Source of the DNA: Arcobacter vandammei
GTDB taxonomy: Bacteria > Campylobacterota > Campylobacteria > Campylobacterales > Arcobacteraceae
Direction: 5' to 3'
Assembly (NCBI RefSeq): GCF_016106035.1
Contig: NZ_JADKPZ010000010.1
Coordinates: 1 to 64,000, forward strand
Length of the DNA: 64,000 nucleotides
Part shown: positions 11,056-18,097 of the stretch, piece by piece
Layout: the number at the start of each line of letters is the position of its first letter
Numbering within the stretch: the first letter of the stretch is position 1
Translations under genes and position numbers: made by a program
The notes under the pieces: generated by a model
Database searches by the model: none
The model's input: the letters and a program-made list of their open reading frames with translations, nothing else
What the model was told of the DNA's origin: nothing

Positions 11056-12567
11056 ATGAAAATAATAAAATCAGCAGTTCAAGATTTAATAGATGCAACA
11101 GTTGTTGAAGTAGAAGCTAGTTTTACAAAAGGGATGCCAAGTTTTACAATTGTTGGCTTAATAAGTACGAGTATTACTGAATCCAAAGATAGAGTCAAAT
11201 CAGCTCTTCTAATAAATGACTTTAAATTCCCTCCATTAAAAATAACGATAAATTTATCACCTTCTGAAATAAATAAAAAAGGAACACATTTTGATTTAGC
11301 AATAGCACTTCAAATAGCACTTTTTGATGAAAAGAAAGTTGATTTTTCTGATTATTTCTTTTTTGGAGAGTTGGCTTTGGATGGAACAATAAAAGATACA
11401 AGTCATATTTTTGCAATTGTTTTATCTCTAGCAAAGAAAAATTTGTTAAAAAAAGTTGTAGTTTGTAAAGATAGTGCTGAAAAATTGGTAAATATTCCAA
11501 ATATTGAAGTATTTGTTGTAAATAGTTTAAATAGTGCAATGGAGTTTGTAAAAAGCTCTGAGAAAGAGAAGTTTTTATATAAAAAAGAGCAGAAAAAATA
11601 TAAAGAGCTAGAGATAAATGGTGAAAAATATTTTTATGATACAAACTATATTGATGATTTTAAGGATGTTTTAGGTCAAGATATGGCTAAGTTTGCAGCA
11701 TTAATTAGTGCTGCAGGAAACCATAATTTAATTATGGAAGGAAGCCCTGGATGCGGAAAATCTATGATAGCAAAAAGATTGCAATATATTTTAGCTCCTA
11801 TGAGTTTGGATGAAATTTTAGAAAAAGCTAAACTTCAAGCACTTGATTTTAAAGAAGTAGATTTTTCGCCAATAAGAGCTTTTAGAAATCCTCACCATTC
11901 AAGTACAAAATCATCTATTTTTGGTGGAGGAAGTTCAAATGCAAAAATGGGAGAAGTTGCTTTATCTAATAGTGGAATTCTGTTTTTTGATGAATTACCA
12001 CATTTCCCTTCTAATATTTTGGAAGCTTTAAGAGAACCTCTTGAAGATTATAAAATCTTAATTTCAAGGGTAAATAGTAAAGTTTTGTATAGTACAAAGT
12101 TTATTTTTGTTGCTGCTATGAACCCTTGTCCTTGTGGAAATAAGCTATCAAGTATGAAAGAGTGTAGATGTAATGAGATGGAGATACAAAGATATAAAAA
12201 TCGTTTAAGTGAACCATTTTTGGACAGAATTGATCTGTATTTAGTAATGAATGATAGTTTTAATGACAATAAAAATATTGTAAATTCAGCTGAACTACAT
12301 AAAAGTGTAATTGAAGCATTTATTAGGCAAAAGCAAAGAGGTCAAGTAGAATTAAATGGAAAATTAAGTGATGAAGATATAAAAAAATATTGCATACTTG
12401 ATGATGAAAGTAGAGATATTTTGGAAAAAGCTAGAGTAAATTATGCTCTATCTTTTAGAAGTATAAATAAGGTTTTAAAAGTCGCAAGGACAATTGCTGA
12501 TATAAATGGCAATGAACTAATCACAAAAAGTGATTTATTAAAAAGTTTAAATTTTAGAAGAAGATAA
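11056..12567 (+). CDS. comM: YifB/ComM-family Mg-chelatase-like AAA+ ATPase
   Basis: The 503-residue protein has the N-terminal ChlI/Lon-like domain (VEASFTKGMPSFTIVGL, INLSPSEINKKGTHFDLAIAL), then an AAA+ module with Walker A EGSPGCGKSM (about 228-237), Walker B ILFFDELPHF (about 308-317) and a cysteine cluster AMNPCPCGNKLSSMKECRC. In Vibrio and Haemophilus the homologue ComM is a helicase that promotes branch migration during natural transformation. That role fits the type II secretion/competence module at 47.4-51.5 kb but is inferred. No operon partner: the next gene is leuA behind its own promoter. Confidence 0.92.
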   Translation: MKIIKSAVQDLIDATVVEVEASFTKGMPSFTIVGLISTSITESKDRVKSALLINDFKFPPLKITINLSPSEINKKGTHFDLAIALQIALFDEKKVDFSDYFFFGELALDGTIKDTSHIFAIVLSLAKKNLLKKVVVCKDSAEKLVNIPNIEVFVVNSLNSAMEFVKSSEKEKFLYKKEQKKYKELEINGEKYFYDTNYIDDFKDVLGQDMAKFAALISAAGNHNLIMEGSPGCGKSMIAKRLQYILAPMSLDEILEKAKLQALDFKEVDFSPIRAFRNPHHSSTKSSIFGGGSSNAKMGEVALSNSGILFFDELPHFPSNILEALREPLEDYKILISRVNSKVLYSTKFIFVAAMNPCPCGNKLSSMKECRCNEMEIQRYKNRLSEPFLDRIDLYLVMNDSFNDNKNIVNSAELHKSVIEAFIRQKQRGQVELNGKLSDEDIKKYCILDDESRDILEKARVNYALSFRSINKVLKVARTIADINGNELITKSDLLKSLNFRRR

Positions 12568-12576
12568 AAATTATCC

Positions 12577-12605
12577 TTGACAAATATAAAAAAAATAAAT
12601 ATACT
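12577..12605 (+). promoter_or_regulatory. Consensus sigma-70 promoter of the leucine leader / leuA
   Basis: TTGACA at 12577-12582 and TATACT at 12600-12605 are separated by exactly 17 bases. A near-consensus -35 is unusual in this group, where most promoters rely on the -10 alone. It lies 9 bases after the comM stop and 31 bases before the leader peptide start. Confidence 0.8.
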
Positions 12606-12635
12606 TACAATCTAATTACAAAAAAGGAGAGTCAT

Positions 12636-12713
12636 ATGAAAATATTTGATATTTTTAAACACAATTTCATTAAAAGTGTAAACTCTCTTCTTCTCTTAAA
12701 AAAAACACTCTAA
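12636..12713 (+). CDS. leuL: Leucine leader peptide upstream of leuA
   Basis: A 25-codon frame starts with ATG at 12636 behind a strong ribosome site (AAAAAAGGAGAG, 12620-12631) and ends at TAA 12711-12713. It reads MKIFDIFKHNFIKSV, then NSLLLLKKTL. Four consecutive leucine codons (CTT CTT CTC TTA, 12687-12698) and one more CTC just before the stop are what is expected of an attenuation leader that senses charged tRNA-Leu. It sits between a consensus promoter and leuA. CTC, a rare choice in AT-rich DNA, is used twice. The gene symbol follows the enterobacterial naming of the leu leader. A 20-bp perfect palindrome begins at its stop codon. The downstream mechanism is not obvious. Confidence 0.8.
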   Translation: MKIFDIFKHNFIKSVNSLLLLKKTL

Positions 12714-12730
12714 TTATAAATTTATAATTA
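12711..12730. repeat. 20-bp perfect palindrome at the leader stop codon
   Basis: TAATTATAAATTTATAATTA is its own reverse complement. It starts with the leader stop codon, so ribosome position on the leader would decide whether this AT-only hairpin can form in RNA. No T-run follows, so it is not a classic terminator. Confidence 0.6.
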
Positions 12731-12756
12731 AATAAAATTCCAACAAATCTGTTTTT

Positions 12757-12783
12757 CTTTTTTTATATAAAAAAAGATATAAT
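12757..12783 (+). promoter_or_regulatory. Palindrome and possible second leuA promoter
   Basis: CTTTTTTTATATAAAAAAAG (12757-12776) is a 20-bp perfect palindrome. TATAAT follows at 12778-12783, 27 bases before the leuA ATG, and would be a good -10 element for a second, leader-independent promoter. The ribosome site AAAAGG of leuA is at about 12797-12802. Confidence 0.45.
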
Positions 12784-12810
12784 CAATTAAGAAATGAAAA
12801 GGTAAATATT

Positions 12811-14364
12811 ATGGATAAAAATAAAATTATTGTATTTGATACTACTTTAAGAGATGGAGAACAAAGCCCAGGTTGTTCTATGAATACAGAAGAGAAATTA
12901 AGAGTTGCTTTACAGTTAGAAAAATTAGGAGTTGATGTTATAGAAGCTGGTTTTGCAGCTGCAAGTCCTGGGGATTTTGATGCAGTTAGTCAAATAGCAA
13001 AAATTATAAAAAATGCAAGTATTTGTTCATTAAGTCGTGCTATAGAAAATGATATAAAACAAGCAGGATTAGCAGTTTCTCATGCTCCAAAACATAGAAT
13101 TCATACATTTATAGCAACAAGTCCAATTCATATGAAATATAAATTAAAAATGTCTCCAGATGAAGTTATAAAAAGAGCAGTTCACGCAGTGCAATATGCT
13201 AGAACTTTTGTAGATGATGTTGAGTTTTCTTTGGAAGATGCTGGAAGAAGTGAAATTCCTTTTATGAAAGAGGTTATGGACGCAGTTATAAGTGCTGGTG
13301 CAAAAACTATAAATTTACCTGATACTGTTGGATATAGATTACCAACAGAATTAGGTGCAATGGTAAAAGAGTTAAGCACTTATGCAGGTGAAAGAGCAAT
13401 AATTTCAGTTCACAATCACAACGATTTAGGTTTGGCTACGGCAAATACTTTAGCTGCTGTTGTAAATGGTGCTAGACAAATAGAAGTTACAATAAATGGT
13501 TTGGGTGAGAGAGCTGGGAACTCTGCATTAGAAGAGGCTGTTATGGCTATAAAAGTGCGAAAAGATGTTTTTGGAGATTTATATACGGGTATAAATACAC
13601 CAGAAATTTATGCAACTTCAAGATTGGTTGCCACAATTACAGGGGTTGAGCCACAACAAAATAAAGCAATAGTTGGTAAAAATGCCTTTGCACACGAAAG
13701 TGGAATTCACCAAGATGGTGTTTTAAAACATCAAGAAACATATGAAATTATGAGACCAGAAGATGTTGGAGTTATCAAAGATAGCACTTTAATTTTAGGA
13801 AAACATAGTGGAAGAGCAGCATTTAAAGATAAAATTGCACAATTAGGTTTTGATAGTGTAAGTGATGAGGAGTTAAATGCAGCATTTGAAAGATTTAAAG
13901 TTTTAGCCGATAAGAAAAAAGATATAACAGATGATGATGTAAGAATGTTAATCACTGATGAAGCTTTAAATCATGATAAAATTTTTGAATTAGTTGGTTT
14001 ACAAATAAGTGACTGTTCAAGCGGTATGCCAATGGCAGCTGTTTCAATTAAATATAAAGATGAAGTTTTAAAAGATGCTGGTTTAGGTGATGGAACTATG
14101 GATGCAATTTTTAAAACAATCGATAGAATGACAGGATATAGTGGAGAGCTAAAAGATTATAAAGTAATATCAGTTAGCGAAGGAAAAGATGCACTAGCAA
14201 AAGTTACAACAAGAGTAAGTTTTGATGATACAACACCAGCATTTGTGGGACATGGTTTAAGTATTGATACTATGTTAGCAACTGCAAAGGCATATCTAGG
14301 TGCTTTAAACTCATATTTAGCTCAAAAAGATAGACTTACAAAAAACTGTGGACATCAGGTATAA
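12811..14364 (+). CDS. leuA: 2-isopropylmalate synthase
   Basis: LeuA condenses acetyl-CoA with 2-oxoisovalerate, the first committed step to leucine. The 517-residue protein has the [12 protein letters not shown] motif (residues 10-21), the metal-binding HNHND segment (about 201-205), the [13 protein letters not shown] motif and a C-terminal regulatory domain that normally binds leucine (about 390-510). The length matches LeuA rather than the shorter homocitrate synthases. It stands alone (no leuBCD alongside) and is headed by a leader peptide rich in leucine codons. A strong terminator starts at its stop codon. Confidence 0.97.
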
Positions 14365-14720: not shown

Positions 14721-15140
14721 ATGAAATTGGCACTTTTGATTATAGCTTTGGTTTTTGTACTTATGCAGTTTATAAGACCCGATAAAATAGAGTATATAGA
14801 AAATAGCCCAGCTGAGATAAAAGCTGATGAAAATATAAAAATTATACTAAGAAAAGCTTGTTATGATTGCCATTCAAATGAGATTAAATATCCTTGGTAC
14901 TCAAATGTTGCTCCTTTTTCTTGGGTTGTTATAAATCACACAAAAGAGGGTGTTAGAGCTTTGAACTTTTCAGATTGGGAAAATTATAATTATGTACAAA
15001 AAAATGAAAAATTAAAAGCAATTTATAGGACAGCTCATTCATCTATGCCCCTTCCTGCATATACTTTAGTTCATAAAGATGCAAATATTTCAAAAGATGA
15101 GCGAAAAATGATTAGAGATTGGACTGGAGTGCGACAATAG
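14721..15140 (+). CDS. Haem-binding domain protein (periplasmic, CxxCH)
   Basis: The 139-residue protein begins with a hydrophobic signal/anchor (LALLIIALVFVLMQFI) and contains one c-type haem motif CYDCH (about 51-55) followed by SNEIKYPWYSNVAPFSW, which matches the small haem-binding domain family (Haem_bd). The protein would be anchored in the inner membrane and face the periplasm. The partner is unknown. It is sandwiched between a cytoplasmic thioredoxin-like gene and mutS, and its stop codon TAG shares a base with the mutS GTG start. Confidence 0.82.
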   Translation: MKLALLIIALVFVLMQFIRPDKIEYIENSPAEIKADENIKIILRKACYDCHSNEIKYPWYSNVAPFSWVVINHTKEGVRALNFSDWENYNYVQKNEKLKAIYRTAHSSMPLPAYTLVHKDANISKDERKMIRDWTGVRQ

Positions 15141-18097
15141 TGAGAGAAGAGGTTGCTTTTTTACTTGAAAATAGAAGTGAACTTCTAACAACTACTTATT
15201 TTAAATTACAAGAACTTTTTGAACAAAAATATGGACAAAATGCCCTTGTTCTTATGGAAATAGGAACTTTTTTTGAAGTTTATGAAGTAAACAACGAAAA
15301 AGAGAAAATTGGAAAAGCAAAAGAAATAGCTGAACTTTTAAATATCCAACTTACAAGAAAAAATAAATCAATACTTGAAAACTCTAAAGAAAATCCAATA
15401 ATGGCTGGAGTTCCAGCAATATCTTTTGAAAAACATTTAGCTAGGATTATTGCTGAACAAAAATATACTATTGCAATTATACGGCAAAAAGGTATTCCTC
15501 CCAATGTAAGTAGATATTTAGATGTTGTTGTAAGTCCTGGAACTAACTTTGATTTTATTGTAGATCAAGATGACAATTTTATAACTTCAATAGTAATTGA
15601 TCAAATAAGAGGAAATTATTTAATAGGTTATAGTGCAATAGATGTAACAACTGCAAAGTGTTATTACAATGAAGTTTTTGGAACGGCTGAAGATAAATTT
15701 TTTGCTCTTGATGAAGTTTTTAATTATATGAATATGCATAAAACTAGCGAAGTAATTGTTACAATTGCTGATAAAAATATAAATTCTAAAGAGATTATAG
15801 ATTATTTAGAGCTAAATTTAAAAAGCTATCATTTAAGAAACTTTAGACCAAAAATTTCATATCAAAATGAACTTTTTAAAAATGTTTTTAATATAGAATC
15901 ACTTTTAACCTCAATTGAGCATTTAGATATGGAAAGAACTCCACTATCTAGCGAATCTTTGGCAATTTTAATTGATTTTGTAATAGCTCATGATAGTGCA
16001 ATTATTCAAAAATTATCAAATCCAATAAAACTAGATGTTAGCAGATATATCTATTTAGGTAATAATGCACTAGAACAACTAAATATAATCGACACAACTC
16101 ACAACCCAAGTTTGATAAAATTAGTAAATAATACTTCAACAGCTATGGGAAAAAGGCTTTTAAAAGAGAGATTAACAAACCCAATTAAAGATACAAAAGA
16201 GCTAAGTAGAAGATATAATTTATCACTTGAACTTTATGATTATCACACTCCAATAGAAGGTGAATTAGCAAATATTTATGATATAGAAAGACTTACAAGA
16301 AGAATAAAACTAAGTAGGCTTCACCCTTTTGAGTTGAACTATCTTTATGACTCTTTAATAAGTATAAAAGAGATTGTTAAATTTATGGAAAACTATAAAT
16401 TTATAACTCCACCATGTAGCAGTGCTGAAATAGATAGCTTTATAAAATCAATAAATAGTACTTTTGACTTAAGTATAAGTGGAAGATTTATGCTAAAAGA
16501 TGTCGATACAAATATGATAACAAGTGGAATAAATCTTCAAATTGATGAGTTAAATGAAGAAAATGATAGGCTTATATCAAAATTGGAGCTTATAAAAGAG
16601 CATATTTTAGGTTTTATAAAAAGTGATGATAGCAATTTTGTAAGTATAAATAGACTTGATAAAGAGGGCTTTTTTCTATCTTTGACAAAAAATAGATACA
16701 ACTTAATAAAAGATGAACTTCTAAAATCTCATATAATAATAGATAATGAACTACTACTTTTTAAAGATTTTTCTATAAAAACTCAAACAAATTCTGTAAA
16801 AATTTCTTGTAGATTAAGTGATGAAATTTCAGATAAATATGTTCATAATCTTAGAAAAATTGTAGAGATAAATAAGCTAGTTTTCAAAGAGAAACTTATT
16901 GAGCTTGAGAAAAAGTTTGCCATACTTTTAGAAGAGTTAGTTCAATTTATAGCTGAAACAGATTTAACAATTTCAAATATAAAAACAGCAAAAAAATATA
17001 ATTATACTTGCCCAAAAATAGTAAAAACAAAAGAAGATGAGAATTTTTTAGAACTTATAGATTTGCGACATCCAATAATTGAGAGCAATGAAGAGCAAGG
17101 AATTTATGTTCCAAATGATATTATTTTAGGGGAATTATCTTATGTTTCAAAAGAGAATAAAGATAATTTAATAGTAAAAAATTCAAATCCTATAAATCTT
17201 ACAAGCAATAAAATGCACGGAATTTTACTTTTTGGTATAAACTCTTCTGGAAAATCATCTTTAATGAAAGCTATTGGAATAAGTGTTATTTTAGCACAAG
17301 CTGGATTTTTTGTGCCTTGTAAATCTATGAGATTTTCAATATTTGACTCAATCTTTACAAGAATTAGCGGAGCTGATAACATTGCAAAAGGCTTATCTAG
17401 TTTTGCAGTTGAGATGATGGATTTAAAAAATATTTTTAATCGTGCAAATAAAAAATCTTTGATTTTAGGAGATGAGATAAGTCATAGTACTGAAACTTTA
17501 AGTGGGCTTAGTATTGTTGCAAGTGCTATTTTAAAACTGTCAAAACTTGAAGCACTTTTTGTATTTGCTACACATTTACATCAACTTCCACAAATTCCGC
17601 AAATTGAGAATCTAAAAAATATTATTTGTCTTCATTTGGCTGTTATGTACGAAGATAGCGAAGATAAGTTGATTTTTAATAGAAAATTATCTTATGGAAG
17701 TGGTTCATCTATATATGGATTGGAGTTTGCAAAATCACTTCATATGGATAGAGAGTTTTTAAATACTGCAAATGAGATTAGAAAGAAATTAGCAGATGAT
17801 TACACAAAAATTGAGCGAATTTCGCAAAAACAATCTTCAAAATATAATAACAATTTATATACAAGTACTTGTGTGATTTGCGGTCGTGCTTGTGAAGAAG
17901 TTCATCATATAATTGAGCAGTCAAAAGCTGATGAAAAAGGTTTTATTGGGCATATAAATGCAAACCATAAATACAATTTAATTCCACTTTGTAAAACACA
18001 CCATAAAATGGTTCATGATGGAAAAATCAATATAAATGGCTTTGTAGCAACATCAAAAGGTTTGGAGTTGCATTATACAAGTTTGGAAAATGAGTAA
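15140..18097 (+). CDS. MutS7-type MutS homologue with C-terminal HNH nuclease domain
   Basis: The protein has about 985 residues. The N-terminus carries the mismatch-recognition type motif LMEIGTFFEVYE, with the Phe-x-Glu pair of MutS1. Core and lever domains follow, then the ATPase with Walker A GINSSGKSS (about 697-705) and Walker B LILGDEISHSTET (about 773-785). After the ATPase comes CVICGRACEEVHHIIEQ ... NLIPLCKTHHKMVHDG, a canonical HNH endonuclease (about 910-960). This arrangement is that of MutS7, known from Campylobacterota, octocoral mitochondria and giant viruses. The start is the GTG at 15140: GGAG lies 10 bases upstream, and the in-frame TTG at 15119 has no ribosome site. The GTG shares one base with the stop of the haem-binding gene. 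Confidence 0.9.
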   Translation: MREEVAFLLENRSELLTTTYFKLQELFEQKYGQNALVLMEIGTFFEVYEVNNEKEKIGKAKEIAELLNIQLTRKNKSILENSKENPIMAGVPAISFEKHLARIIAEQKYTIAIIRQKGIPPNVSRYLDVVVSPGTNFDFIVDQDDNFITSIVIDQIRGNYLIGYSAIDVTTAKCYYNEVFGTAEDKFFALDEVFNYMNMHKTSEVIVTIADKNINSKEIIDYLELNLKSYHLRNFRPKISYQNELFKNVFNIESLLTSIEHLDMERTPLSSESLAILIDFVIAHDSAIIQKLSNPIKLDVSRYIYLGNNALEQLNIIDTTHNPSLIKLVNNTSTAMGKRLLKERLTNPIKDTKELSRRYNLSLELYDYHTPIEGELANIYDIERLTRRIKLSRLHPFELNYLYDSLISIKEIVKFMENYKFITPPCSSAEIDSFIKSINSTFDLSISGRFMLKDVDTNMITSGINLQIDELNEENDRLISKLELIKEHILGFIKSDDSNFVSINRLDKEGFFLSLTKNRYNLIKDELLKSHIIIDNELLLFKDFSIKTQTNSVKISCRLSDEISDKYVHNLRKIVEINKLVFKEKLIELEKKFAILLEELVQFIAETDLTISNIKTAKKYNYTCPKIVKTKEDENFLELIDLRHPIIESNEEQGIYVPNDIILGELSYVSKENKDNLIVKNSNPINLTSNKMHGILLFGINSSGKSSLMKAIGISVILAQAGFFVPCKSMRFSIFDSIFTRISGADNIAKGLSSFAVEMMDLKNIFNRANKKSLILGDEISHSTETLSGLSIVASAILKLSKLEALFVFATHLHQLPQIPQIENLKNIICLHLAVMYEDSEDKLIFNRKLSYGSGSSIYGLEFAKSLHMDREFLNTANEIRKKLADDYTKIERISQKQSSKYNNNLYTSTCVICGRACEEVHHIIEQSKADEKGFIGHINANHKYNLIPLCKTHHKMVHDGKININGFVATSKGLELHYTSLENE

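Follow-up and report, generated by a model that had tools for sequence, protein, structure and literature searches.

The leuA gene, which encodes 2-isopropylmalate synthase, occupies positions 12811-14364 on the forward strand of the 64,000-nt stretch of Arcobacter vandammei DNA analysed here (64 kb, hereafter the window). Its product, read from the ATG at 12811, contains Pfam HMGL-like and LeuA_dimer domains and is 93-94% identical to the copies of A. cryaerophilus and an Aliarcobacter MAG, which places the window in an Aliarcobacter-like genome; leuBCD do not follow directly 3' of it. Upstream lies a small open reading frame, leuL (12636-12713, forward strand), whose own upstream neighbour is a comM-type Mg-chelatase gene (11056-12567). 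The leuL frame runs for 25 codons (MKIFDIFKHNFIKSVNSLLLLKKTL) from the ATG at 12636 to a TAA at 12711-12713, and leuA begins 97 nt downstream. It contains a run of four Leu codons, CTT CTT CTC TTA (12687-12698, forward strand), and a fifth, CTC, as its last sense codon (12708-12710, forward strand). On the same strand it is preceded by a promoter, P1 (12577-12605), matching the consensus at 11 of 12 positions (TTGACA at 12577-12582, a 17-nt spacer, TATACT at 12600-12605), and by a strong Shine-Dalgarno (SD) sequence, AAGGAGAG at 12624-12631, which as AAGGAGAGT (12624-12632) also provides the 5' strand of a helix with the Leu run. The initial annotation, which proposed a leucine leader peptide from a consensus TTGACA-N17-TATACT promoter, a strong ribosome site and a 25-codon frame with these five Leu codons directly upstream of leuA, was correct on each of these points. 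Farther along the window, 15119-18097 on the forward strand encodes a large MutS-family protein (992 aa by its first start) in which MutS domains I, III and V are joined to an HNH endonuclease-like stretch at the C-terminus (residues about 898-972), an unusual fusion.

Within the 64-kb window no ATG ORF of 12-40 aa other than leuL combines a preceding SD with LLLL close to the C-terminus, and shuffled windows contained on average 0.075 SD-preceded ORFs of this kind. A leuL profile (A3) gave one significant match in the genome, the leuL locus itself (E 6.7e-14; next 0.06), and no paralogous leuL-type leaders were found elsewhere in the genome by this search. Nor were leaders found before leuC or ilvB, both of which are located away from leuA, so that leuL control would fall on leuA alone. 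When the DNA upstream of leuA was scanned at 170 Campylobacterales loci for ORFs that follow an SD and end in a Leu-rich stretch, leuL was found at about 110, including 13 of 13 loci of its own genus and 56 of 73 upstream regions of Arcobacteraceae (family f1 in our numbering). It is present in all examined members of f4, f9, f20 and f22 and in part of f18, f6 and f10, and was not found in the leuA upstream regions of f15 (0/11), f7 (0/6), f14 (0/10) and f17 (0/3); candidates in f13 and in genome G152 are doubtful, and G152 and G194 were excluded from the tests. Most f15 members, which have no leuL, carry a conserved TTTTTTTCCATTGACA promoter that starts immediately before leuA. The leader is always upstream of leuA, in a single copy per genome, and in many families leuA follows it closely, at about 50-70 nt. 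In the Arcobacteraceae alignment promoter, SD, frame, Leu run and stop align together and the ORF is free of gaps; the -35 and -10 of P1 are kept in 22 of 23 aligned Arcobacteraceae, and GGAGAG of the SD is almost invariant. The proposal of a leucine leader peptide therefore survives comparison with relatives, in which both the Leu run and the frame are conserved.

The leader itself is not new, since it was predicted in 2013 and has been seen by Ribo-seq to be translated in C. jejuni (PMC11955535). The main text of Porcelli et al. (2013; PMC3847290) names LeuL in C. jejuni, notes its rare Leu codons, and predicts it in "most Epsilonproteobacterial genomes", those with leu genes, from a survey of 42 genomes with three Arcobacter species among them; the mechanism was proposed there, by analogy, to be classical attenuation. 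We therefore reject the notion that an ORF left unannotated must be a new one, LeuL being already in the literature (in the main text of PMC3847290 and in PMC11955535). With a length of 20-35 aa, rare Leu codons near the C-terminus, a position before leuA and its own promoter and SD, published LeuL resembles the leader described here, which is a member of this known Campylobacterota kind. A tBLASTn survey of 2025 confined leuL to the vicinity of Campylobacter, whereas our profile searches found it in many families. Unlike the leader in the main text of 2013, where they are undescribed, the leaders compared here show selection on the peptide, a helix between SD and Leu run, an absence of terminators and a second promoter motif; these, and the Leu codon bias reported below, go beyond the published accounts that we found. 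The leuL leader is real, conserved and functional-looking, with an anatomy unlike that of the classical attenuator once assumed for LeuL.

Classical leader peptides require nothing but the codon run. In leuL, the body of the peptide is also conserved, and at the amino-acid level: in FIKSVN (codons 11-16; 12666-12683, forward strand), first and second codon positions are nearly fixed among Arcobacteraceae while third positions vary at the F, I, V and N codons, the K and S codons showing little variation. In 34 leaders from six other families the body is LPKIEIKN, which precedes x-Leu-Leu; codon positions 1 and 2 are almost invariant, third positions are free at L, P, I, E and I (entropy about 1.0-1.8 bits), and the profile matches 53 of 249 genomes of the phylum, with E down to 1.6e-17. 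When the Arcobacteraceae body was compared with that of the other families by hhalign for shared ancestry, the alignment was limited to the N-x-LLL part. Some members keep the body with just two adjacent Leu codons (NYLLR, NHLLHLL). Residues conserved beyond the codon run, with third positions free, are the pattern of an arrest peptide. Judged from these alignments the peptide body is under protein-level selection, which, given that classical leaders need the codon run alone, suggests that the nascent chain itself is of functional weight.

The Leu codons of leuL, as compared across the alignments, favour the rare CTC and CTG over the common TTA. Taking 40 genes of the window as background, in which 51% of Leu codons are TTA and the shares of CTC and CTG are 0.9% each (together 1.8%), the 44 Arcobacteraceae leaders of 25 aa use CTC or CTG for 87 of 210 Leu codons and TTA for 5 of 210, and their last sense codon is CTC, the rarest Leu codon, in 44 of 44. 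Part of this bias may serve RNA pairing. In the LPKIEIKN class, however, the second Leu codon is CTG or CTA in 34 of 34 leaders, a restriction to CTR for which SD pairing offers no explanation, since a CTT there would extend the helix.

The leader SD and the bases that follow it (AGGAGAGT) are complementary to the codons that open the Leu run, the 3' strand (ACTCTCT or CTCTTCTT) lying at 12682-12692 on the forward strand, and the MFE structure predicted for the window leader contains this helix. The AGGAG:CTCCT core match alone is uninformative, because CTN CTN codons naturally complement AGGAG. Independent matched changes in SD and Leu run are found as AGGAGGATAGA/TCTATCCTCCT in G104, AGGAGTGTAC/GTACACTTCT in G179, AGGAGGTTG/CAACCTTCT in G028 and AAGGAGCA/TGCTCCTT in G065, and f4 has the matched pair AGGAGAGT/ACTCTCCT. 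Real pairing exceeded that of SDs swapped between genera (genus-weighted; 0/1000 and 0/500 trials). With the register fixed, the two nucleotides that follow AGGAG were paired in 67% of cases, as against 52% with swapped SDs (0/2000 trials). These swap tests remove shared ancestry incompletely. Synonymous recoding of the window leader with genome usage weakened the pairing (10.3 observed against 6.4; P 0.03). Pairing of the SD extension is absent from most of f20 and much of f18. On this comparative evidence the first codons of the Leu run form a helix with the SD of the leader itself, and the helix covaries between genera.

Between leuL and leuA the initial annotation overlooked a promoter-like element. 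Just 5' of leuA, and kept in close relatives, lie a T tract, an A tract and GATATAAT (12756-12783): the two tracts form a dyad, TCTTTTTTTATATAAAAAAAGA (12756-12777, forward strand), upstream of a putative -10 box of a second promoter, P2 (GATATAAT, of the form gnTAnaAT; 12776-12783, forward strand), 27 nt before leuA. For C. jejuni and H. pylori, the main text of PMC3847290 gives the sigma70 promoter as gnTAnaAT with upstream T periodicity; P2 likewise has a gnTAnaAT -10 preceded by a T-rich tract, and its distance from leuA suits a 5' UTR. A gnTAnaAT match occurs in the leuL-leuA interval of 49 of 56 Arcobacteraceae leaders, and almost all those having the element place it 24-28 nt before leuA (one at 40). 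GATATAAT by itself is not rarer than chance in the window, so the case for P2 rests on fixed position and conservation. The same -10 motif stands at a like distance before the 10941- gene of the window. P2 is absent from most other families; in f6 a similar GGTAnAAT forms part of a hairpin. The Arcobacteraceae thus carry a conserved, putative promoter between leuL and leuA, with the consequence that an attenuator on P1 could control just part of leuA expression. The symmetry of the dyad overlapping the P2 -10 (12756-12783) is kept while its bases change (TCAATTTT..AAAATTGA in G003, CTTTTTTT..AAAAAAAAG in G077), and it could be a dyad in DNA or an RNA hairpin in P1 read-through. Elsewhere (G000:C1:187416-187428; L255), a gene for a KsgA-like methyltransferase has AAAAAGATATAAT 8 nt upstream of its start codon, an arrangement that suggests a leaderless mRNA.

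How the leader might act on leuA is best judged against the mechanism proposed for it by analogy in 2013 and implied by the "attenuation-type control" of the initial annotation, that is, classical attenuation of the E. coli leu/trp type, in which a stall on the Leu run flips an antiterminator/terminator ending in an intrinsic terminator before leuA. The leader ORF does contain a series of pathway codons, a T tract stands before leuA, possible terminating hairpins occur in a few members (some of genus g7, and the Sulfurovum-like f6 with a hairpin near ACAATTTTT), and the C. jejuni leader RNA ends just past the stop codon according to the main text of PMC3847290. Yet the T tract is part of the conserved promoter-like element, no terminator-like site was found between leuL and leuA in the window, and scans for a hairpin followed by a T run, begun at the Leu run and carried on to leuA, gave results no better than shuffled sequence in Arcobacteraceae and nearly all other families, bearing out the remark in the initial annotation that no terminator hairpin with a T run was visible there. 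Folding of 49 Arcobacteraceae leaders with RNAalifold yielded a weak consensus and no terminator; downstream of the Leu run we found neither a mutually exclusive antiterminator fold nor a supported pairing, the pairing of the Leu-run region with the 40 nt that open the intergenic stretch not rising above swapped controls (475/500), so that the Leu run has no conserved alternative partner there. An Rfam search of the leuL region returned sub-threshold chance matches alone and no leader family at E up to 10. An AU-only palindromic hairpin begins at the leuL stop codon (12711-12730, forward strand; z -6.1 here); we rejected it as a universal terminator, since it has z < -1 in 43% of Arcobacteraceae relatives and no T run after it. 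Six Sulfurovum-like leaders (L031, L032, L051, L055, L056 and L063) have a covarying hairpin between leuL and leuA, CTAATTAACC..GGTAnAATTAG, which overlaps the GGTAnAAT -10-like box, is at times followed by ACAATTTTT, and may be a terminator, a promoter dyad or both. As far as these genomes go, LeuL terminator hairpins are missing from nearly all members, and classical attenuation is not supported and, in our judgement, unlikely. What stands of the attenuation-type control first proposed is the leucine leader peptide, with frame, Leu run, SD and promoter conserved in Arcobacteraceae and LeuL published for Epsilonproteobacteria (main text of PMC3847290); the classical mechanism does not, for want of a terminator or antiterminator here and in nearly all relatives, of conserved pairing between the Leu run and the leuA SD, and with a second conserved promoter between leader and gene.

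Control might instead be translational, the Leu run or leader hiding the leuA SD (AAAAGG, 12797-12802, forward strand) until a stalled ribosome frees it. E. coli toiL-topAI (PMC12121999) and the actinobacterial LEU element (PMC1262725) are precedents, and the closeness of leuA in many families would favour such a switch. The LEU element shares with leuL a Leu-codon leader before leuA, the lack of a terminator and Leu codons that pair with an SD box, but there the partner of the Leu run is the leuA SD, within a pseudoknot, and here it is the leader's own SD. Pairing of the leuA SD with the Leu run was not above swapped controls (318/500; observed 6.29, swapped 6.34), which rejects the Leu run as an anti-SD of leuA and with it a LEU-element-like switch; nor was its pairing with the intergenic stretch (486/500). 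Transcripts from P2 in Arcobacteraceae would, moreover, be without the leader, and we hold this explanation to be improbable. An arrest peptide proper, similar to TnaC, in which the body stalls the ribosome on leucine or a related signal and the Leu codons are the stall site, fits a body that is conserved at the protein level, lies at arrest-motif distance from the Leu codons and is kept in members with two adjacent Leu codons. The arrest motifs would, however, be assigned by analogy, and the bodies of Arcobacteraceae and the other families differ, only N-x-LLL being aligned, so this strikes us as rather doubtful. Protein-level conservation and the location of P2 would also suit a small protein or RNA made from P1 and acting in trans, apart from P2-driven leuA, as described for the rhizobial leader peptide peTrpL (PMC7298713). 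With leuL always upstream of leuA, in single copy and with a run of rare Leu codons near its end, such a role is very unlikely.

We favour, with a probability of about 45%, a reading in which leuL senses the supply of leucyl-tRNA, stalling on the Leu run sets P1 read-through by way of the SD helix and Rho or decay, and P2 gives basal expression. The comparison of genomes provides its parts, namely the leader, the rare-codon run, selection on the peptide, the SD:Leu-run helix, the lack of a terminator and the P2 motif; from these we infer that leucine is sensed, that the ribosome stalls, in which direction leuA responds, that Rho is the effector and that P2 is active. A ribosome would start on the nascent P1 RNA and make the conserved peptide body. 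When charged leucyl-tRNA is short it would slow or stall on the rare Leu codons, probably aided by the body in the exit tunnel; the SD would then stay open, because a Leu run under a stalled ribosome cannot pair with it, and the P1 RNA would be covered by ribosomes. With ample leucine, the ribosome would finish, the Leu run would pair with the leader SD and leader translation would be switched off. The G-poor RNA ahead of leuA, now bare of ribosomes, would be open to Rho or decay, and few P1 transcripts would reach the gene. In Arcobacteraceae, P2 would give basal leuA expression independent of the leader, and a strong P2 would leave the leader only a minor part in controlling leuA. Rho is encoded in the genome, and G content between leuL and leuA is 1-10% in 13 of 14 families, figures that have no proper genome-wide control and, at 5.9%, reflect a weak depletion in Arcobacteraceae, whose short leuL-leuA stretch does not stand out as a place for Rho to load. 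In this model stalling on the Leu run would control P1 read-through, with Rho or leader translation as the probable output step that we infer.

The proposed mechanism has relatives among known leaders. As in the enterobacterial leu attenuator (LeuL, RF00512), four adjacent Leu codons stand in a leader ORF upstream of leuA; unlike it, there is here no terminator or antiterminator, the peptide is different, leuA is alone and a second promoter is present. Stalled leaders gate Rho in the case of tnaC and, through translation, of toiL (PMC12121999). As in the tnaC, msrDL and toiL uORFs, a stalled leader ribosome would govern Rho-dependent or translational output; TnaC, like leuL, has conserved peptide residues, but these uORFs sense free Trp or antibiotics, and leuL has a run of Leu codons. 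It is conceivable, though we regard it as tentative, that LeuL is a phylum-wide leucine-responsive arrest peptide, in which a fixed motif of the nascent chain (LPKIEIKN in six families, FIKSVN in Arcobacteraceae) stalls the ribosome together with the rare Leu codons, and the SD:Leu-run helix turns the stall into an on/off state of leader translation that gates Rho, without attenuator hairpins.

Amino-acid leader peptides are usually thought to act by their codons alone, with a terminator hairpin as readout. The phylum that contains Campylobacter seems to have kept the leader, the peptide sequence and the helix between SD and codon run, but not the hairpins. The anatomy of LeuL thereby corrects a mechanism carried over by analogy in 2013, and would make it a clear test case for leader translation controlling a gene without an intrinsic attenuator.
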